This document shows positions 44-7,597 of a DNA stretch of 64,000 bases, one piece after another. Position 1 is the first letter of the stretch; every line of letters begins with the position of its first letter. Where the stretch lies: contig JAAHGF010000001.1 in NCBI GenBank assembly GCA_010672585.1, positions 248,001 through 312,000 on the forward strand, in the 5' to 3' direction. The translations under genes and the position numbers were made by a program. Under the pieces are notes generated by a model. That model ran no database searches and was not told the origin of the DNA. It saw nothing but the letters and a program-made list of their open reading frames with translations. The stretch is from Okeania sp. SIO1I7. Lineage in GTDB: Bacteria; Cyanobacteriota; Cyanobacteriia; Cyanobacteriales; Microcoleaceae.

Positions 44-182
44 TACCGAATAATTGTGGTTTAAAGTCTCCCCTTTTTAGGGGGATAATAAAGAAAAATT
101 TTCATGATTAGTCAATCCTATCCGTTTTAAAGGAGAGGTAATTATTAATTATTAATTATTAATTATTAATTATTAATTATTG
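44..182. repeat. Dispersed intergenic repeat (TTACCGAATAATT...AATTATTAATT type)
   Basis: The stretch begins TTACCGAATAATT, carries short inverted GG/CC tracts and ends in tandem AATTATT units. The same layout recurs near 9171-9290, 38956-39185, 42905-43113, 47404-47605, 54120-54265, 60151-60395 and 61930-61995, so it is a multicopy non-coding element. It overlaps the last codons of the next gene. Confidence 0.75.
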
Positions 183-897
183 AACCCTCCTCCCTGTTTC
201 TAGAGATATTTAATGAACCTGTTAAGTAAATACCGAATAAACCCAGAGCAATTATTGTTGTGGGTTCGGGAACATCAACCTTAATAATCTCAGCATATAA
301 TATTGCATTTGCTACTGAATGTTCTGGGGAGTTAAACTCACTGAGAAAAGTATTACCACCGTCACTAGAAAAACCAGCTAATTTCAAGGTGTAATCTACT
401 CCAGCAAAGTTAAAAGAATCATTTGTTAGACCATTAGCAGTAAAAAGAAGTATATCTCCATCTAAAACTGGGTCGTTGTAAATGTTAGGAGTATTGAAAA
501 TATTGAAGGTGTAGTTGAAGTTTTCTGCGTTGTTGAAAGGATTAGTAAAAGACAGTTCAACCTCTAGAGGAAAGTCTCCATTAAAACCATAGTAAGTAGC
601 GCCATTACCATAGGTTAAATCACCAACAGCAAATAAAGTATTTACATCCGTGCTGAAACTTAAGCCATCATACTGAACATAATTTCTGAACGATGTAGTG
701 GCAGCAATTCCCCAAGTTAATCTGTTATTTGTCCCACCGTTTTCATCTGAGAGAAATTCCACACCAGTAGATACAACGGGTAAACCCCAAGATCCAGATG
801 ATGTTCCAGAAAAAGTAATGGCTTGGGCGTTTTCTGTTGCTGCAAATAAGATAGTAGTAGTTGCTACTAAGGTTGTTAAAAGTTTAGGTATGTTCAT
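166..897 (-). CDS. PEP-CTERM sorting domain protein
   Basis: A secreted protein of about 243 residues, read from the ATG at 897. That start places a clean signal peptide first (hydrophobic run ending near AQA); an upstream ATG at 945 would add 16 polar residues in front of it, so I prefer 897. The body is a beta-rich domain of unknown function. Near the C-terminus lies VPEP, a hydrophobic helix and then a basic cluster (SRNREE), the tripartite PEP-CTERM signal recognised by exosortase-type transpeptidases in families where this is known. Attachment to or export through the envelope is therefore inferred. The last residues (IINN) and the stop codon come from an AATTATT repeat, so the natural C-terminal tail may have been trimmed or replaced. 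No exosortase gene is in the window. Confidence 0.85.
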   Translation of the reverse strand: MNIPKLLTTLVATTTILFAATENAQAITFSGTSSGSWGLPVVSTGVEFLSDENGGTNNRLTWGIAATTSFRNYVQYDGLSFSTDVNTLFAVGDLTYGNGATYYGFNGDFPLEVELSFTNPFNNAENFNYTFNIFNTPNIYNDPVLDGDILLFTANGLTNDSFNFAGVDYTLKLAGFSSDGGNTFLSEFNSPEHSVANAILYAEIIKVDVPEPTTIIALGLFGIYLTGSLNISRNREEGSIINN

Positions 898-1137
898 TGC
901 AAACTGTTCTGTTGATTTTTTATTTATATTAGTCCGTTGTTTCAATAGACTTATCCGGAAAATAAAGATATAAGATCAATTTTATCACAGGAAAATTTTA
1001 AGTAAATTTTCTGATATATTTAATAGCTTAGTTATTAATTTTACTTAGAGAACAACTTTAATTTTGGTAGTCCTAAACAGATAAGGATATTAGTTGCTAC
1101 ATTCCTTTAATTGTCAGAAGGTAGACTAGAAAAATCA

Positions 1138-2415
1138 TTACTTGTTTACCACGACCATTCTTTGTATAAACTTTTTTAACTTTGAAAATTCATCTTTCTG
1201 AGCAATAATTCTGATTGGACGCACAAAATAGTATAGAAAAGATAGTGATTTTGGTAATGGCAGAAATTCTTGATCTTTTCCACTAGGTACAACAGAAAAG
1301 TAAATGATATTACGAGCTTTTCGGATTCTTCGCCTGAAGCTTCTTGTATATAAAAGGAAAAAGTGTAGAATAGAATGGGGAGCACTACTCAAAAAGCGAA
1401 AAAGAAAGTGCTCTAATTTTGTAGTTGGGGTACCTGGGGTAAATAAAAAACGTTTGCTTACTTGAGAAACAAGTAATTTAACAACTGGATCAGCTTTCTG
1501 GATTTTTTGCCCAATTGCTTCTGGAAAAGATACTCCCCAAAGTTCATTTATTAGTAAAAGAGCAAGGAATAGAAATTTCTTAATGCCGAGATTCTTTGAA
1601 GTTTCGATGACCATTTCCCAATCCATTTCTGGATGAACATAGATAAGTTGAGCCAAATCACATAGCCATTTTAGCTGTCTCCAACGATCCTTAGATCCAT
1701 GTATACAGAGAATAACTATTAAATCCTCTGGGGGAAAGTGAAGTACTTTTTTGCCAGACAATTCCACTAATTCTAGTCGCTGCCAAAAAGGTTCAATATC
1801 AATGTCAAAAGGAATCATGCCACCACCTACATTGATATGCTTTGTAGCAATTTTCCAGTGCAGTTCTAGGAAAATATTTTTTTCATCATTAAATTTATAA
1901 AACTTGTAGTTGTAATGAAACTTCAGTAATTTTGATTCTTTGGCAAGGGTTTGAGTTGGTGTTTCATATCCTTCAGCAAGAAGTAATACTTTAGCCTTCA
2001 AAATATCCTGCTTGCGAATCAAAATATCTAAATCACCCCATTGTCGAAATCCGAGATTACCATAGACTGAAGCAGCTAAAACAGCTCCTTTAAAAGGGAT
2101 AGCTGGTATGTCATTAGTCTCAAATAGTTCAAGTAACTTAAGAAGTTCGCTAGTTAGGGTAAGATTGTAGCTAGTGGTAGCATAAAAATTATCTTTGAGT
2201 TTGCTTAAAGTTGCTTGGGGAACTGACTCTGGGCAAATTGTGTTGAGGTTCCAGTAAAGGAGTGGTATTACCCCCTCTAGATTTGCTATCTCGATCAAGT
2301 ACTCCCAATCAATATCTTTTTGGAGTAAGTTTTTAAGCTTCTCAGAATTTTTTGCATCTAGGTAGGTTCTAGCACAGCAAAGTAATAACTCGTTTTCAGG
2401 ACGATTCTTTTTCAT
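1138..2415 (-). CDS. NTP_transf_5-type nucleotidyltransferase family protein
   Basis: The protein carries the signature of uncharacterised nucleotidyltransferases (NTP_transf_5): PFKGAVLAASVYGN followed by GDLDILIRK, with two Asp in the GDLD motif as likely metal ligands. It is read here from the ATG at 2415 (425 aa). A TTG at 2487 would overlap the stop of the upstream gene by a few bases but adds 24 residues that look unlike the family start. The family is common in RiPP clusters, including lasso peptide clusters with HprK-like kinases, where nucleotidyl transfer to a peptide has been proposed. Here it is the last gene of a minus-strand run with a PqqD-domain protein and an HprK-like protein, which fits a peptide-modifying role. 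Its substrate cannot be read from the sequence. Confidence 0.8.
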   Translation of the reverse strand: MKKNRPENELLLCCARTYLDAKNSEKLKNLLQKDIDWEYLIEIANLEGVIPLLYWNLNTICPESVPQATLSKLKDNFYATTSYNLTLTSELLKLLELFETNDIPAIPFKGAVLAASVYGNLGFRQWGDLDILIRKQDILKAKVLLLAEGYETPTQTLAKESKLLKFHYNYKFYKFNDEKNIFLELHWKIATKHINVGGGMIPFDIDIEPFWQRLELVELSGKKVLHFPPEDLIVILCIHGSKDRWRQLKWLCDLAQLIYVHPEMDWEMVIETSKNLGIKKFLFLALLLINELWGVSFPEAIGQKIQKADPVVKLLVSQVSKRFLFTPGTPTTKLEHFLFRFLSSAPHSILHFFLLYTRSFRRRIRKARNIIYFSVVPSGKDQEFLPLPKSLSFLYYFVRPIRIIAQKDEFSKLKKFIQRMVVVNK

Positions 2416-2483
2416 TGAAGACTGATTAAGGACTGGCGTTAAGGTAGTCACAAAGTTTTCATATATGATTATTGACTTGCGTT

Positions 2484-3395
2484 TCAAGAGCTTATTTGTG
2501 TTTGGCTTTTGAAGATTGCTTTTTCGTAAATTTGTTTTATTCTGTCTAAATATTCTTCTGGTATTTCACCAATCCATTTTTCTGTGATAATTTCATCTTC
2601 AATTGATACAGCAGTAGGATAAGCGTCTACCATATAGCCAAATAATAGTTTATCCATTGTGACTAAAGGAAAACGAACCATTTGTTCTTCCTTGAATTCG
2701 TCTAAATCTTCATTTTTAGCAGACATTATTCCTAATACTTGTGGTAAATCTTTTTGAGTATTCATCATATTCAAAAAAGGAATCCAACGTTTACAGTAAG
2801 GGCAATCTTGACTTAAGAAGACTACAAAATGAGAACCTTTTTGTAAATTATGAGGACTATTTTTTAACCAACGGCGTTTCCAATGATTACCGATTTTCAG
2901 GCGAGAAAAATCTATTAATGGTTTCTCTTGAGATTTCCAAGCCATTATGCAAGTTATCAACATTACTATCAAGGTTAATATCCATTGCCAAGTTTGAGTT
3001 TGATGATTGGGAATAGGATTGAACCAAGCAATTGTTAGTAATGTTATATAAACTATGTTGAGTAAAATACTTTGCAGGGGAGTAACAATAATTATTCCTC
3101 CATAGCAACCACAATATTCTGTTTTTCCTGTAGAAGTTGACCAAATGGTTAATATTGATAAAGCGATTAGTAAGACAATTGAACTAGGTATTAAATATTC
3201 AGGAAATATATTGAGAATTAAACCTAATCCTAAAGCAGATTCTATACTTATAAAGGCGATCGCTATTTGTGGGATAATGTTTGATGGAAATAGATTGTAT
3301 CTGTAATTTTGTTGGATAAATTCTTGTGAGTCTATTGATTTAATTATTCCTGCAATTAAGAAGATAATACCTATAATAAATGCATGAAGATACAT
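2484..3395 (-). CDS. MauE/DoxX-like membrane protein fused to a thioredoxin-like domain
   Basis: Residues 1-155 form about four or five membrane segments of the MauE/DoxX-like type, with a CxC pair (YCGCYGG, C95 and C97) in a loop. Residues 185-290 form a thioredoxin-like domain with CPYC (C198, C201) and a cis-Pro-like DAYPTAV segment. In the methylamine dehydrogenase system MauE and MauD help form disulfides in a periplasmic Cys-rich subunit. By analogy this fusion could pass electrons between the membrane and an exported thiol protein. That fits the gene upstream, which encodes a Tat-signal protein with eight Cys after the signal. The ATG is at 3395, after a 179-base gap that holds a fragment of a dispersed repeat. 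The topology of the thioredoxin domain is not established by the sequence. Confidence 0.8.
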   Translation of the reverse strand: MYLHAFIIGIIFLIAGIIKSIDSQEFIQQNYRYNLFPSNIIPQIAIAFISIESALGLGLILNIFPEYLIPSSIVLLIALSILTIWSTSTGKTEYCGCYGGIIIVTPLQSILLNIVYITLLTIAWFNPIPNHQTQTWQWILTLIVMLITCIMAWKSQEKPLIDFSRLKIGNHWKRRWLKNSPHNLQKGSHFVVFLSQDCPYCKRWIPFLNMMNTQKDLPQVLGIMSAKNEDLDEFKEEQMVRFPLVTMDKLLFGYMVDAYPTAVSIEDEIITEKWIGEIPEEYLDRIKQIYEKAIFKSQTQISS

Positions 3396-3435
3396 ATTTT
3401 TTTCTTGATAAATTTGTTTTTATTGGCTTTATATT

Positions 3436-3496
3436 TTATGGCTGTCTTCACAAAGGTTTACTACAGTAAAAATTTATATATACCTAAACTTTAAAA
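3436..3496. repeat. Partial copy of an inverted-repeat element
   Basis: About 60 bases match, in reverse, the right half of the inverted-repeat element at 24793-24899 (shared core around ACTGTAGT and CCTTTGTGAA). It lies directly upstream of the MauE-thioredoxin gene, so it could affect that gene's expression. Confidence 0.55.
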
Positions 3497-3574
3497 AGAC
3501 TTGATACTGCTCTGTAGGCTTCCCATAAACAACATACACGTACAAGGAGAATTTTTCATACATAACTAATGATA

Positions 3575-4225
3575 TTACGGGCATTTACAAATACAATCAA
3601 TAAACACAGAAACTTTGAGTAAACCAGGTGGTACATTATCGCGGTCAAAGTCTGTACCTTTAATTACCGTAATTGTCAACTCTTTTATTGTTTTTGTACA
3701 AGGTGATTTACACTTACATTTAGCATTTTGTCTGGCTCTAATTGTAGCAGTTCTTTCATCAGCAGCTATTGCCATACCTACAATAACTGTACTGCGTTCA
3801 CATGTACATTTTTGTGAAGCAGCCATCACAGGTGCTGGTGCAACAATTGACTTAACAACAGGAAACATAGAACCAACAGCAAACCCACCAACTAAAACAC
3901 CTGTTTTAATAACCTTCCGTCTAGAAACACTAGCTATTCCTGTTGGTTGTTTGAGATACTCTTTAATCAGTTGATAACGCTCCAATTCTTCCAAAGTCAG
4001 CCAAACTAATCCCCTCATATCCACATCTTCAGTCTGTGAAACATCCAATTCTTTTTCTAATAATTGAGCAATATCTTTAACTGAATGCTGACCATCACAA
4101 AGCTCCCAAACTCTAGCTGCCATAGGATTCAAACAATGAGAACTATTATTTACTTCGTCATAAACAATGACTTCATTTCCAACTGATTGAATTAACAGTT
4201 TTTCACTTCTTGCTACAGGTATCAT
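3575..4225 (-). CDS. PqqD-like domain fused to a Tat signal and a Cys-rich tail
   Basis: Three parts are visible in 216 residues. Residues 1-95 match the PqqD family (DEVNNSSHCLNPMAARVWEL, then an acidic helical region), the fold used as a peptide-binding RRE in many RiPP enzymes. Residues 101-135 form a twin-arginine-like signal: SRRKVIK, a hydrophobic run and a cleavage-like APVMA|AS. Residues 136-216 hold eight Cys, mostly as CxC pairs (140/142, 170/172 plus 176, 211/213/215). An AAGGAG ribosome site precedes the ATG. The gene sits 26 bases after the HprK-like gene. A cytoplasmic recognition domain in front of an export signal is unusual; it suggests the protein is handled in the cytoplasm and its tail then exported, possibly with metal or disulfides. 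That is inference; no function is known to me. Confidence 0.8.
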   Translation of the reverse strand: MIPVARSEKLLIQSVGNEVIVYDEVNNSSHCLNPMAARVWELCDGQHSVKDIAQLLEKELDVSQTEDVDMRGLVWLTLEELERYQLIKEYLKQPTGIASVSRRKVIKTGVLVGGFAVGSMFPVVKSIVAPAPVMAASQKCTCERSTVIVGMAIAADERTATIRARQNAKCKCKSPCTKTIKELTITVIKGTDFDRDNVPPGLLKVSVFIDCICKCP

Positions 4226-4251
4226 TTTTTTTATTTCTCCTTATTATGTAA

Positions 4252-5142
4252 TTAATTCAACAAAGCTATAGCCGTCTCATCTGCTTCACCACGCTTTCCT
4301 TCAACACATACAGCATCAGCTACAGCACGAGACAAAATAGGTAAAGCAAACTCAGGACGAAGACGAGCAACAATGGTATTATCTAAAAGTGCTAACACCG
4401 CTTGACCAGCAGAAATAGAAGTCGGACTCCATTGAATTCCTGCTCTATATTGAGTATGGACTACCATACCAATAGGTATTGGCTCAATTCCTGCCTTTCC
4501 ACCTAATTCCTCCACAGAACATCTTCTAACTCCCTGATCCTCATCTTGCCTAATAGATAAAGGTCGAGCATAGGGGTGAACCAGTCCATTAGCATCCAAC
4601 ACAGCATACTCATCTGAATAATAAATAGCTCCTGCCTTCACTAAAGCTGCAATTAAGGTTGTTTTGCCACTAAAACTACGTCCAGGAATAACAATAGCTT
4701 TTCCTTGCCAACCAACTACCCCCGCATGAACAAACAATCTATCTTGAACTGCTATACCTATCTGCAAGCGTAAATCAGAGTCCAGAGTAGCCAAAGCTTC
4801 CCCTAGCTCAGTTGTCTCAGTTAGTTTTTCTTGATTACGATAAAGCTGATAATAACCATGGGTATCACAGCTATCAAGAGTTTCAGTCATAATCAGCGAA
4901 TACAACTCATCTACAATAGGTGACGCAGATGACTCCCACCCAGGAGGTAGATAATTTAAAAGCTCTTTTAAAACTGTTGACTCATTGACCCGAATACCGA
5001 TACGAATACCATAACTGACTAGAGACAATTGACCATTCCACTGGATGTTATCTAATACCCCTAATTCAATATTGTCCTCAGCAGGACTTGTGAATTTATA
5101 AGTAGAAGTAGGGCAACCATAATGTAATTGAGCCTCACTCAT
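4252..5142 (-). CDS. HprK-like P-loop (serine kinase-type) protein
   Basis: A 296-residue protein with the C-terminal half of HPr kinase/phosphorylase-like proteins: FVHAGVVGWQGKAIVIPG, then the Walker A GRSFSGKTT (154-162) and SDEYAVLD (176-183). The N-terminal 120 residues are not the HprK N-domain of Firmicutes. In lasso peptide clusters related enzymes phosphorylate the precursor peptide. Here the partner is likely the PqqD/Tat/Cys-rich protein, whose gene starts 26 bases downstream. The ATG is preceded by CAGGA inside a leader that is repeated upstream of the cupin gene at 13571-14002. Classical HPr-phosphotransferase regulation is unlikely, because cyanobacteria generally lack that sugar PTS and no PTS gene is nearby. 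Confidence 0.8.
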   Translation of the reverse strand: MSEAQLHYGCPTSTYKFTSPAEDNIELGVLDNIQWNGQLSLVSYGIRIGIRVNESTVLKELLNYLPPGWESSASPIVDELYSLIMTETLDSCDTHGYYQLYRNQEKLTETTELGEALATLDSDLRLQIGIAVQDRLFVHAGVVGWQGKAIVIPGRSFSGKTTLIAALVKAGAIYYSDEYAVLDANGLVHPYARPLSIRQDEDQGVRRCSVEELGGKAGIEPIPIGMVVHTQYRAGIQWSPTSISAGQAVLALLDNTIVARLRPEFALPILSRAVADAVCVEGKRGEADETAIALLN

Positions 5143-5734: not shown

Positions 5735-7597
5735 TTAGCTCTTATTTGAACAAGATTTTTCATAATGAACTGTTTTTTCAACTGTTTGTATTTCATTAGG
5801 AGGTACAGTTCTTTCATCCATAAAGTAAATAATTAAACCATCTAATTGTTTTTTTCCTTTATGAGTAGAATTCCATTGACGACAAAGATAAGCTGCATAA
5901 TGAGGATATAATTTTTTTCCTACTGCACGGTTAAGAGTTATCAAATAAACTCGCCATTGAATTGTTTCATAAAATTCTTGACGCTGTTTAATATTTGGTT
6001 TATCCCAAGTAATTGGTTGTTCTTCTGCTAAAACATTAACTGTACTTCCATCTTTTAATTTACCTTCAATAACGTGCCAACCATCATCTCTGGGCGGTGC
6101 AGGAGCAAAAATACTCCATATTTGATCTAAACGAGTCATGTAACCAATAGGATGAATATATTGAAAAGTTCGTCTATTTAGTAGTTTATGAGTAGCTGTA
6201 ATCCAATCATTTTTCTGTTCTTGACGCCAAGCATAGGTTTGTTTGACAAAACTTCTCAAATTCCACATCGTAGTAAGTAGAAGTAAAGTAACAGTAATAA
6301 AGTTGAAAATTAAGGAAGGGCAAACTTCAATTGGTCGAAATTTTAAAGGTGCAGTAAACTTGCCTGCAAATTGACGATTAGAAGCAATTTTTTCATAAAT
6401 TTTAGTACCTAAAGATTTTAAAGGTTGCCATTTTAAGATAGGTACAAGAAAACTAAATAAAGGAGATAAACTCACTACATAAATTATTCCTTCCCATTTG
6501 AAGTAACGATTTTGTTGCCAATCTTCTACTACCCAAGAATTTTCGGCTAACATATCCTCATAAATAGATGGATAATCTTGTGCCATTAATACAGGGGTTT
6601 TCGGCAAAATTAACAAGGTACGCAATAAATAAACTACCTTTTTACAAAAACCACAATCAGCATCGTAATAAATGGTTAATCCTTGACGTTGTTGATTTTC
6701 TATTTTTTGTTCTGCTTTATCCCAAATTACACTAGGTATTAATGCTAACCACATACAGATACTTAGATAACTTAAAATTCCGATGTGAAAACATAGTTCA
6801 AAACCAATATGTAATAAGACAAAAGAAACAATTGCTATACAACGGAATAAAGCATTCCGAAAAGGGATAAATATGATTAACGGACCAACCCACTCAAAAA
6901 TAAGTGCAGAAATAGTCAGTAATTTTAAAATTTCTTGAGGAAAAGTCAATAAAAATTGAGCAAATGCTGTGGAATATTGGTCAAAACTTAATGAGTAATA
7001 AACAGCGTCTCCATCAGGCCACCAAATGTCACTTTTGGTTTTAAAAGCTGCTGACCAAATATAGATATAACAAACTTGAATTAAAAAAGCTAAAGTTGCT
7101 CCACTACATACTTTTTTAGGTAAAGAATTGCTGGAAGAATTAAGGGCACTATCTATTGAATAACAAGCACCTAATGGCAAAAACATTGACCAAAAAAGCA
7201 TCGCCCGTAAAACATGATCTGCCGCAAAAATTAATGGTGGATTACGATTATTTAGAGAGATTATTAATGCCCAAGTAGCAATAGTTGCTAGTCTGGTACG
7301 ATAACCGAATAACATAGCTAAAGCAAAGAATATAGCTACGGCAAATATTAATCCTTGTATGAAGGGATGACCACTAATTAAATTAATTGACCAATACCAA
7401 GGATTGAGCATATCAATTAGAGCAGAGCGTGGTAAAATTCCACTATCAGTATAATGAGCATTTAAAGCTTGAGCACGAATAATTATATCCGTAAGAGTCA
7501 TTAACGCTAAACCAATCCGAAATATGGCAAGGGAGCGTAAATCTAAACCGATAATTTCATCTAATTTTAAAAGAGAAAAAATTTTTGTCTTGGTCAT
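5735..7597 (-). CDS. HTTM domain protein with DCC thiol-disulfide module
   Basis: A 620-residue protein. Residues 15-290 contain several membrane segments of the HTTM type, the domain shared with vitamin K-dependent gamma-carboxylase (SLAIFRIGLALMTLTDI near the start, then repeated hydrophobic stretches). Residues 307-420 form a DCC domain with the signature YYDADCGFCKK (C315, C318), typical of thiol-disulfide oxidoreductases (DUF393). Residues 440-620 are a soluble tail common in HTTM proteins. Direct gamma-carboxylation is not implied. Together with MauE-thioredoxin and the Cys-rich Tat protein downstream, it suggests redox work at the membrane. The ATG lies exactly at the end of a GATAACTGAAATGAC heptamer repeat, so its promoter and ribosome site come from repeat DNA. 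A 592-base gap separates it from the HprK-like gene. Confidence 0.82.
   Translation of the reverse strand: MTKTKIFSLLKLDEIIGLDLRSLAIFRIGLALMTLTDIIIRAQALNAHYTDSGILPRSALIDMLNPWYWSINLISGHPFIQGLIFAVAIFFALAMLFGYRTRLATIATWALIISLNNRNPPLIFAADHVLRAMLFWSMFLPLGACYSIDSALNSSSNSLPKKVCSGATLAFLIQVCYIYIWSAAFKTKSDIWWPDGDAVYYSLSFDQYSTAFAQFLLTFPQEILKLLTISALIFEWVGPLIIFIPFRNALFRCIAIVSFVLLHIGFELCFHIGILSYLSICMWLALIPSVIWDKAEQKIENQQRQGLTIYYDADCGFCKKVVYLLRTLLILPKTPVLMAQDYPSIYEDMLAENSWVVEDWQQNRYFKWEGIIYVVSLSPLFSFLVPILKWQPLKSLGTKIYEKIASNRQFAGKFTAPLKFRPIEVCPSLIFNFITVTLLLLTTMWNLRSFVKQTYAWRQEQKNDWITATHKLLNRRTFQYIHPIGYMTRLDQIWSIFAPAPPRDDGWHVIEGKLKDGSTVNVLAEEQPITWDKPNIKQRQEFYETIQWRVYLITLNRAVGKKLYPHYAAYLCRQWNSTHKGKKQLDGLIIYFMDERTVPPNEIQTVEKTVHYEKSCSNKS

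Follow-up and report, generated by a model that had tools for sequence, protein, structure and literature searches.

The analysed stretch, hereafter the window, covers 64,000 nucleotides of the Okeania sp. SIO1I7 genome and contains a cassette of four minus-strand genes. An HprK-like P-loop kinase (4252..5142; 296 aa) is followed by a carrier-substrate fusion (3575..4225; 216 aa), a protein joining a MauE-like membrane domain to a thioredoxin-type domain with a CPYC motif (2484..3395; 303 aa), and an NTP_transf_5 nucleotidyltransferase (1138..2451). For the last gene, a GTG start at 2451 appears to fit the start of its homologs better than the TTG from which the ORF extends to 2487 (449 aa). 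With the GTG start, the intergenic gaps measure 26, 179, and 32 bases. Three window proteins match Pfam models above the cut-off, namely NTP_transf_5 (PF14907, 2.1e-62), MauE (5.7e-17), and PqqD (PF05402, 5.8e-9). Matches to thioredoxin-type and BT_3928 models fall below it, and the kinase has no Pfam match. No peptidase gene was seen among the ORFs and Pfam matches of the window's cassette, and a promoter and terminator scan returned no more sites than shuffled sequences. The original prediction had named four genes of these kinds, which are confirmed as ORFs and recur in relatives.

The fusion combines three elements in a single chain. Its PqqD/RRE domain (residues ~1-90; 3956..4225) forms the predicted cytoplasmic part and scores 30.9 bits against TIGR04353, below the 35-bit cut-off. 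A structural model of a relative (L020, copy 2) displays strands followed by helices, the order typical of an RRE, at low confidence (mean pLDDT 48; 60-79 over residues 11-90). The best PDB match of this model is the lasso RRE TbiB1 (1.2e-3), with a weaker match to PqqD 3g2b (0.095) and none at or below 0.001. Together, the PF05402 match and the modeled strand-helix order indicate that the domain has the features of an RRE. The Tat signal (residues 98-136; 3818..3934) carries S-R-R in all 20 fusions compared and closes with a conserved box, P-x-[VI]-K-[ST]-[IV]-x-x-P-x-P-x-M-A in consensus (~3821-3862). Within this region, P122 and P132 occur in 20/20 fusions, P130 in 19/20, K125 in 16/20, and M134 in 13/20, while residue 126 is Ser in 19 and Thr in one. 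Ala135 occupies the predicted cleavage site in 19/20. A full Tat pattern (twin Arg, hydrophobic stretch, A-x-A-type end) matches 18/20 fusions, including that of the window, and export is predicted. The pattern misses three Tat candidates (G573 copy 2, the Gemmatirosa fusion, and a Vibrio protein) and thus under-counts. The remainder of the chain is a predicted exported tail with eight Cys (3575..3817, stop codon included).

The window kinase matches the NCBIfam model TIGR04352 (HprK_rel_A) with 55.9 bits (E 3.4e-15), below the 200-bit cut-off; for comparison, a Vibrio kinase (L085) reaches 323.9 bits. His139 (HAGV), the Walker A motif GRSFSGK[TS]T (154-162), and YYSDE (174-178) are conserved in 9/9 aligned kinases, window included. 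We take the His and the acidic pair to be the catalytic residues of the HprK/PEPCK fold. An AlphaFold model of the kinase (mean pLDDT 73) retrieved PEPCK (2.4e-5) and HprK/P (1.3e-4) in a Foldseek search of the PDB, with TM-scores of at most 0.55 among the 50 matches listed. Walker A motif, presumed catalytic His, acidic pair, and modeled fold are therefore all present in the predicted kinase, as expected of the HprK/PEPCK fold.

In the MauE-thioredoxin protein, the CxxC of the thioredoxin domain and a CGC in the MauE domain are invariant in 7/7 aligned sequences, including that of the window. Relatives of this protein occur at other peptide-export loci. The Leptolyngbya plasmid pLBY encodes one together with a six-Cys peptide bearing a Gly-Gly leader and two peptidase-domain ABC transporters, and in the window's own genome another adjoins an NHLP bacteriocin exporter. 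In relatives, NTP_transf_5 also occurs joined to glycosyltransferase domains, and the G078 protein joins it to a methyltransferase domain, so that the role of NTP_transf_5 itself may differ.

The arrangement recurs in relatives. Fusions were collected by profile searches, since a single-protein search of the phylum mixed them with plain PqqD proteins. Duplicates were counted once (G602/L020, G783/L022, G782/L023, and G078/L021/L012), and a broken locus (L058 in G601) was excluded from all locus counts and kept in genome tallies. The resulting set comprises 12 intact loci with 20 fusions, of which 11 loci are cyanobacterial (the window among them) and one lies on a Gemmatirosa plasmid. Another 20 genomes from the profile searches lacked a fusion; the loci of 12 were profiled, four of them also by eye. 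G390, outside those 12, has a match over positions 5-125 with one stop. HprK-like kinase, PqqD-Tat fusion, and NTP_transf_5 occur together in all 12 intact loci, and all four gene kinds in seven. Such recurrence indicates that the arrangement is not due to chance. Gemmatirosa, from another phylum, has the same four gene kinds, with the nucleotidyltransferase on the opposite strand.

Carrier and tail contrast sharply in conservation. The window protein and three relatives (both Okeania SIO2C9 copies and copy 1 of G078) are 74-97% identical in the carrier and 23-33% in the tail, and six tandem pairs are 84-100% and 22-72% identical, respectively. Tail boundaries were set by pattern, so that Okeania tails begin 4-6 residues early with Cys counts unaffected; three G774 tails enter the tail table and were left out of the protein identity pairs. 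At the DNA level, eight tandem pairs show a drop in identity around nt 411, where cleavage is predicted. The drop falls in or just past the 60-base block holding that site in 7/8 pairs and, in the G567 pair, only after ~nt 480, past a common Pro/Thr stretch. The window tail contains eight Cys in ~79 residues (binomial P 3.5e-6 for at least eight, against a 1.1% Cys background taken from window ORFs with 250 aa or more, non-genes among them), and Cys numbers are even in 12/12 Cys tails. A six-Cys ICK (knottin) spacing matches 6/11 tails with at least six Cys, and shuffles of the matching tails also match at 2-47%. The other five, including the window's, do not match it, nor does the Leptolyngbya core. 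Pfam knottin-type models gave matches only below the cut-off in the 10 tails scanned, and the model of a Cys tail is not confident (pLDDT <50). By spacing, some Cys tails look knottin-like, and that of the window does not. A C-terminal Ser ends 2/20 fusions; the window tail ends in KCP.

Accessory enzymes vary with the tail. MauE-thioredoxin is present in 7/7 loci with Cys-rich tails vs 0/5 without Cys, and a glycosyltransferase domain plus a hydroxylase in 5/5 loci with Thr/Pro tails vs 0/7 others. Fisher's test gives p 0.0013 for each association, with thresholds chosen after the tails had been seen and kinship uncorrected. Two of the seven Cys-tail loci (G551, G573) have a divergent 2OG-oxygenase gene nearby, which was not counted as part of the cassette; if counted, the hydroxylase tally becomes 5/5 vs 2/7. 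G567 combines both chemistries: its tails have Thr/Pro repeats as well as Cys, and the locus encodes a MauE-Trx-JmjC fusion and an O-FucT-like-NTP_transf_5 fusion. On a kinase tree, from which kinase-like ORFs of <230 or >420 aa were left out, G599, which has neither a Cys tail nor MauE, nests within the MauE clade (98/97), and the Nostoc loci with Thr tails group in a clade of their own; several forks fall under the tool's support mark. According to this tree, tail type and MauE changed together at least twice. Tree and Fisher counts alike rest on few independent changes.

Considering the hypervariable tail, its co-variation with accessory enzymes, and the drop in identity near the predicted cleavage site, the cassette most likely has the tail as its product, and accessory enzymes appear to follow the chemistry of the tail. 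The original prediction had likewise proposed that the tail is the substrate exported in a system led by PqqD and that MauE-thioredoxin oxidizes it, and both proposals gain support, the latter from the distribution of MauE and the even Cys numbers. Its view of the four genes as a unit holds for the trio, with MauE-thioredoxin accompanying only Cys-rich tails; a single obligatory unit of four is rejected, as MauE is absent from 5/12 loci. Fusions separated from their neighbors, which it had regarded as counter-evidence, were found with respect to MauE only, kinase and NTP_transf_5 being present in all 12 intact loci. It took the same view of PqqD domains and tails encoded in separate, unrelated genes. 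The Tat protein does have its own gene in five other loci, and PqqD and Tat-tail genes are separate in four (L060, L061, L063, L084). These lie in the same gene clusters and are hence read as support rather than refutation. The separate Tat proteins lack the full KSIxxPxPxMA box and a visible PqqD domain.

Architecture, constancy of the trio, hypervariability of the tail, and tail/accessory co-variation are directly visible in the sequences, and from them we infer a series of steps. Placed first in the precursor, the PqqD domain would act as a built-in recognition domain, replacing a separate leader and RRE, and would bring the HprK-like kinase and NTP_transf_5 together on one chain in the cytoplasm. 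Most likely, these two enzymes would phosphorylate a Ser or Thr and then attach a sugar or nucleotide to the phosphate. Such chemistry is probable by analogy with pseudomycoidin, where an HPr-kinase homolog and a nucleotidyltransferase are reported to install first phosphate and then hexose (PMC8498205). The chain would be exported via Tat, the signal being cut after the conserved box, and MauE-thioredoxin would form the disulfides of a Cys-rich tail outside the cytoplasm. Loci of relatives would keep the carrier together with the kinase/nucleotidyltransferase pair, while tail and tailoring enzymes are swapped jointly. The product presumably serves as a secreted competitive or surface peptide. 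Overall, we consider it reasonably probable that the product of the cassette is a mini-protein modified and exported by these steps.

The constancy of the trio beside a variable tail also fits a different division of labor, in which kinase and nucleotidyltransferase mark the carrier, for example at Ser/Thr126, for the timing or quality control of Tat export or for membrane release, and only accessory enzymes modify the tail. Every fusion, across two phyla, has Ser or Thr at residue 126, the conservation of the box seems, in our judgement, to exceed the needs of a signal end, and no acceptor common to the tails is visible. However, a phosphate or sugar at the signal end might hinder Tat, and the separate-gene Tat proteins lack the full box. 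Moreover, the same enzyme kinds are reported to modify the core in lasso clusters (PMC8498205). This alternative is possible, with a chance we place well short of even.

Two further explanations were considered. PqqD proteins are usually chaperones rather than substrates, and this fact, with no peptidase gene seen in the window's cassette, would agree with a regulatory or adaptor protein anchored in the membrane by its twin-Arg segment, whose tail serves only for redox sensing or binding while nothing is secreted. A chaperone should nonetheless be conserved throughout, whereas tandem copies have different tails, and their DNA identity drops near the cleavage site, and separate-gene relatives have Tat-tail proteins without a visible PqqD domain; an adaptor is hence unlikely. 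The cassette could also mature a secreted subunit of an ordinary kind, either cofactor-bearing or part of an enzyme, since a Tat signal, a Cys-rich chain, and MauE with a thioredoxin parallel MauA, MauE, and MauD of methylamine dehydrogenase and its light chain. Dissimilar tails on one carrier, their occurrence in tandem copies, and the fact that no dehydrogenase-like partner gene was noticed among the cassette ORFs read make this explanation very unlikely.

If the proposed route to an exported mini-protein is correct, the little-studied HPr-rel-A cassette gains a candidate substrate, and an RRE acts as part of its own precursor. Tat export, usually associated with folded enzymes, would be tied to modified secreted mini-proteins. 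A constant carrier with swapped tails and matching finishing enzymes suggests a modular, little-studied route to such products, and this combination would represent a natural design for bacterial disulfide-rich or glycosylated peptides.

Known systems share parts of this organization. Like the phospho- and phosphoglyco-lasso peptides paeninodin and pseudomycoidin, the cassette pairs an HPr-kinase homolog with a nucleotidyltransferase, and PqqD-type proteins also occur in the lasso-like loci examined. In the lasso precedent, these enzyme kinds are reported to act on the core (PMC8498205), at a C-terminal Ser. In contrast, the window precursor has a Tat signal and no C-terminal Ser, and window-type kinases group apart from lasso-locus kinases on the kinase tree. 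A phmmer search with one cyclase-like and one B2-like query from L062 (1e-6) gave no match within the window's first 20 kb or in any of the other 11 fusion loci. A lasso cluster is therefore rejected, in line with the original prediction. A PQQ cluster was dropped as well, as the ORFs read showed no PqqA or PqqE.

In the maturation of methylamine dehydrogenase, MauE and MauD act on MauA, the disulfide-rich light chain, and there, too, MauE and a thioredoxin-like protein serve a small Tat-exported disulfide-rich protein. The cassette differs in its fused MauE and thioredoxin, its dissimilar tails, and the lack of noticed dehydrogenase genes. The bacteriocin-type cluster of pLBY (L083) shares a homologous MauE-Trx (56% identity across 92% of the query length) and a six-Cys core, and Pfam Toxin_7 matches both this core and two Okeania tails below the cut-off. 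Unlike the window, pLBY uses peptidase-ABC transporters in place of Tat, and HprK, PqqD, and NTP_transf_5 are not annotated in the 16.8 kb examined. In the open PubMed Central literature, HprK and PqqD were not found in the same paper, "HprK-related kinase" and PF14907 each had no mention, and PqqD, Tat signal, fusion, and cyanobacteria were not found together.

The core trio resembles the HPr-rel-A system, named in NCBIfam but uncharacterized (TIGR04352, kinase A; TIGR04353, PqqD family chaperone). A TIGR04352 search matched 43/386 cyanobacterial genomes with at least 60 matches, none above the cut-off among those listed. Follow-up covered 40 stretches (42/60 matches, with 11/60 outside), eight by inspecting ORFs by eye and the remaining ones with profiles and a pattern search. 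The L062 queries used on the fusion loci identify a lasso-cyclase-like gene in 19 stretches and a B2-like gene in six more (25/40). The Tat pattern flagged 18 ORFs in 14 stretches, six of <250 aa, judged by eye to be larger membrane proteins or chance frames; with this under-counting pattern, profiles, and eye, no small Tat substrate was seen beside the kinase in the 40 stretches. In Sphingomonas (L084), by comparison, kinase and PqqD domain are followed by a nucleotidyltransferase gene, and a Tat-signal protein lies upstream. Vibrio L085 likewise has an upstream Tat-signal protein, and no PqqD gene was detected there. Kinase, PqqD, and nucleotidyltransferase occur together, as in L084, in all 12 intact fusion loci. 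The system that the original prediction called possibly undescribed thus has a core trio resembling that of a named system, from which the window departs in scoring below both cut-offs, in uniting PqqD and Tat substrate in one protein, and in its added MauE-Trx and hypervariable tail. Tentatively, and with somewhat less than even confidence, we propose a distinct ribosomal product pathway in which an "RRE in cis" leader, a Tat signal, and interchangeable cargo would be joined to a constant kinase/nucleotidyltransferase pair and cargo-matched finishing (disulfide formation, hydroxylation, protein O-glycosylation) to yield knottin- or mucin-like mini-proteins, with HPr-rel-A cassettes that neighbor a Tat gene representing the broader family of systems that modify Tat cargo.

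The four minus-strand genes of the original prediction (window positions 1138-5142) were recovered at the coordinates it gave, separated by measured gaps of 26, 179 and 32 bases. Its names NTP_transf_5, MauE and PqqD were borne out by family-model matches over cut-off. The HprK-like kinase had no Pfam match, and its match to HprK_rel_A (TIGR04352, of the NCBIfam HPr-rel-A system) fell below cut-off. Its His, Walker A and acidic residues are kept across nine aligned sequences, and its predicted structure resembles PEPCK and HprK/P.

Directly upstream of this cassette, window 5735-7597 (minus strand) encodes a 620-aa membrane protein whose thiol-disulfide oxidoreductase domain is DCC1-like. It is probably not a cassette member, since the sequence upstream differs in the relative Okeania sp. 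SIO2C9. A gene for a PEP-CTERM/choice-of-anchor K protein (166-945, minus strand) also adjoins the cassette and is kept downstream in SIO2C9. Elsewhere in the window's genome, a 105-aa frame on contig C19 (6395-6574) holds a second PqqD-domain match over cut-off.

The fusion protein (3575-4225, minus strand) joins a constant carrier, formed by the PqqD/RRE domain and a Tat signal, to a variable tail. Within six tandem pairs, carriers are 84-100% identical in protein and tails 22-72%. DNA of eight tandem pairs, compared in 60-base blocks, is mostly 80-100% identical along the carrier, with one 60% block in genome G573. Identity drops from block 361-420 (65% in G551, 48% in G573) or the next block; most later blocks are 37-76% identical, some lower where tails end. 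The G567 copies hold 83% to base 480. The Tat signal ends at base 411, and its last part follows the consensus P-x-[VI]-K-[ST]-[IV]-x-x-P-x-P-x-M-A, recognisable even in the Gemmatirosa plasmid.

Partner enzymes vary with the tail. The expected co-occurrence of the fusion with its neighbours held for MauE-Trx (a MauE-like membrane domain joined to a CPYC thioredoxin-type domain; window 2484-3395, minus strand) in all seven loci with Cys tails, namely the window, SIO2C9, G078, G551, G573, G567 and Gemmatirosa, and failed in all five loci lacking them. Cys tails carry 8, 4, 12, 8, 6, 6, 6, 6, 6, 6, 6 and 6 Cys. Thr/Pro tails coincide with a glycosyltransferase and a hydroxylase in 5/5 loci (others 0/7), few independent changes standing behind these counts. 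Cys-less Thr/Pro tails are found in four Nostoc-type loci (L013, L022, L023, L080). These lack MauE-Trx but encode an epimerase, a 2OG-Fe(II) oxygenase and an NTP_transf_5 that carries a fused GT60-like (PF11397) glycosyltransferase, assigned by Pfam in L013 and by plain likeness in the other three. G567 tails combine Thr/Pro repeats with Cys; at this locus (L056:5196-9369), MauE-Trx bears a fused hydroxylase domain (JmjC/Cupin_8), and NTP_transf_5 a fused O-FucT-like domain (below cut-off). The G078 NTP_transf_5 has an FkbM methyltransferase domain as its fusion partner. The tail of G599 is short and rich in Arg, and only the kinase and NTP_transf_5 accompany it. Divergently placed 2OG-oxygenase genes near the Cys-tail loci of G551 (Pfam basis) and G573 were left out of the cassette counts. 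Knottin spacing fits six of 11 tails tested, and 2-47% of shuffles of those six; the window's own tail does not fit, and the likeness is no more than suggestive.

The fusion is sporadically distributed. A search with one protein across 386 cyanobacterial genomes gave clear fusions in just three, the window's genome (G000), G078 and G352; a phylum-level profile search again matched 3/386. The constant-region profile matched 29 of the order's 388 genomes, nine with Tat fusions (G000, G602, G551, G573, G352, G078, G567, G599 and G601, a broken locus). The remaining 20 gave weak matches, most restricted to the PqqD part; loci were examined in twelve. Family-level searches matched 3/50 genomes (one being G601), 4/61 and 5/217, and the cassette carrier occurs in two of five genomes of the window's genus. 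Named records with relatives are Okeania sp. SIO2C9, Richelia sinica, Nostoc spongiaeforme FACHB-130 and Nostoc sp. CHAB 5844. A single plasmid record among 72,556 matched the carrier at E 0.001, that of Gemmatirosa kalamazoonensis (Gemmatimonadota), with 38.5% identity across all 137 residues; this plasmid also encodes the kinase (34%), MauE-Trx (29%) and, on the opposite strand, NTP_transf_5. This sporadic pattern suggests transfer and loss of the cassette. A match to TIGR04117 (Cys-Xaa-Xaa-Xaa repeat radical SAM target), which stays under its cut-off, covers the signal and tail region of the Gemmatirosa fusion (L069:12001-12537). The broken G601 locus (L058:6467-11979) retains a Pro/Thr-rich tail and pieces of the GT60-NTP_transf_5 gene, with TnpB-like ORFs, labelled by eye, inside and beside it.

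In five loci first taken as controls, the Tat protein is its own gene. L061 (8369-9007) and L063 (8041-8703) encode a protein in which a KilA-N-like domain is joined to a Tat signal and a tail of poly-Thr, near PqqD, GT60-NTP_transf_5 and kinase genes. L060 (2012-3058) has a similar protein with a NTTGTTNTG-type repeat tail and a PqqD-NTP_transf_5 fusion; no kinase was found on its 9.9 kb contig. KilA-N exceeded the Pfam cut-off in L063 only, and the GT60-like part rests on a Pfam run on L061. A DNA-binding-type domain on a Tat protein is a strange pairing. A separate Tat protein accompanies PqqD, kinase and nucleotidyltransferase in Sphingomonas (L084), and kinase and nucleotidyltransferase in Vibrio (L085), where no PqqD was found in the locus. 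In a tree of 65 kinases, some of them on long branches (including those of Gemmatirosa and Vibrio), the 12 fusion-linked kinases form one group (100/99). A supported branch (99/96) sets 45 lasso and other kinases against these 12 plus eight more, from L061, L063, L084 and L085, all with a separate Tat protein, and L086, L117, L144 and L151. Loci L118 and L120-L127 of small-genome cyanobacteria (family f25) have HprK-like kinases, PqqD encoded on the opposite strand and no match of cyclase type; they are another uncharacterised type.

The MauE-Trx profile matched 3/120 genomes in the order and did so at two places in the window's own. The second copy in that genome (contig C83, L163:3981-7528) has as neighbours an NHLP bacteriocin exporter (over cut-off) and a 71-aa ORF. 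In G391 (L164:7515-9150) and G418 (L165:1217-2768), the MauE and thioredoxin parts are separate frames adjoining a gene for a PpiC-type isomerase, an arrangement that resembles a decayed or divided version of the cluster on Leptolyngbya boryana plasmid pLBY. There (L083:7147-14756), a PpiC-type peptidyl-prolyl isomerase is followed by a MauE-Trx 56% identical to the window's and two peptidase-domain ABC transporters. A Gly-Gly-leader peptide of 81 aa (6621-6866, plus strand) has a six-Cys core that does not fit the knottin spacing used; the Toxin_7 model of Pfam gives this peptide, like two Okeania tails, a match below cut-off (0.055 for the peptide). These placements of MauE-Trx fit a broader function in the folding of Cys-rich peptides that are exported.

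The evidence is comparative throughout, and its best reading is that the kinase and nucleotidyltransferase would modify the chain in the cytoplasm, guided by the cis PqqD domain, before Tat export, cleavage and a final oxidation by MauE-Trx. The main rival for the site of modification is a conserved hydroxyl at position 126, which would place the candidate acceptor of both enzymes within the carrier. By analogy, the chemistry of this enzyme pair may resemble that of pseudomycoidin, whose kinase phosphorylates the C-terminal Ser and whose nucleotidyltransferase attaches one or two hexoses in vivo (PMC8498205). The acceptor residue in the fusions would differ from pseudomycoidin's, since a C-terminal Ser is not conserved among the fusions.
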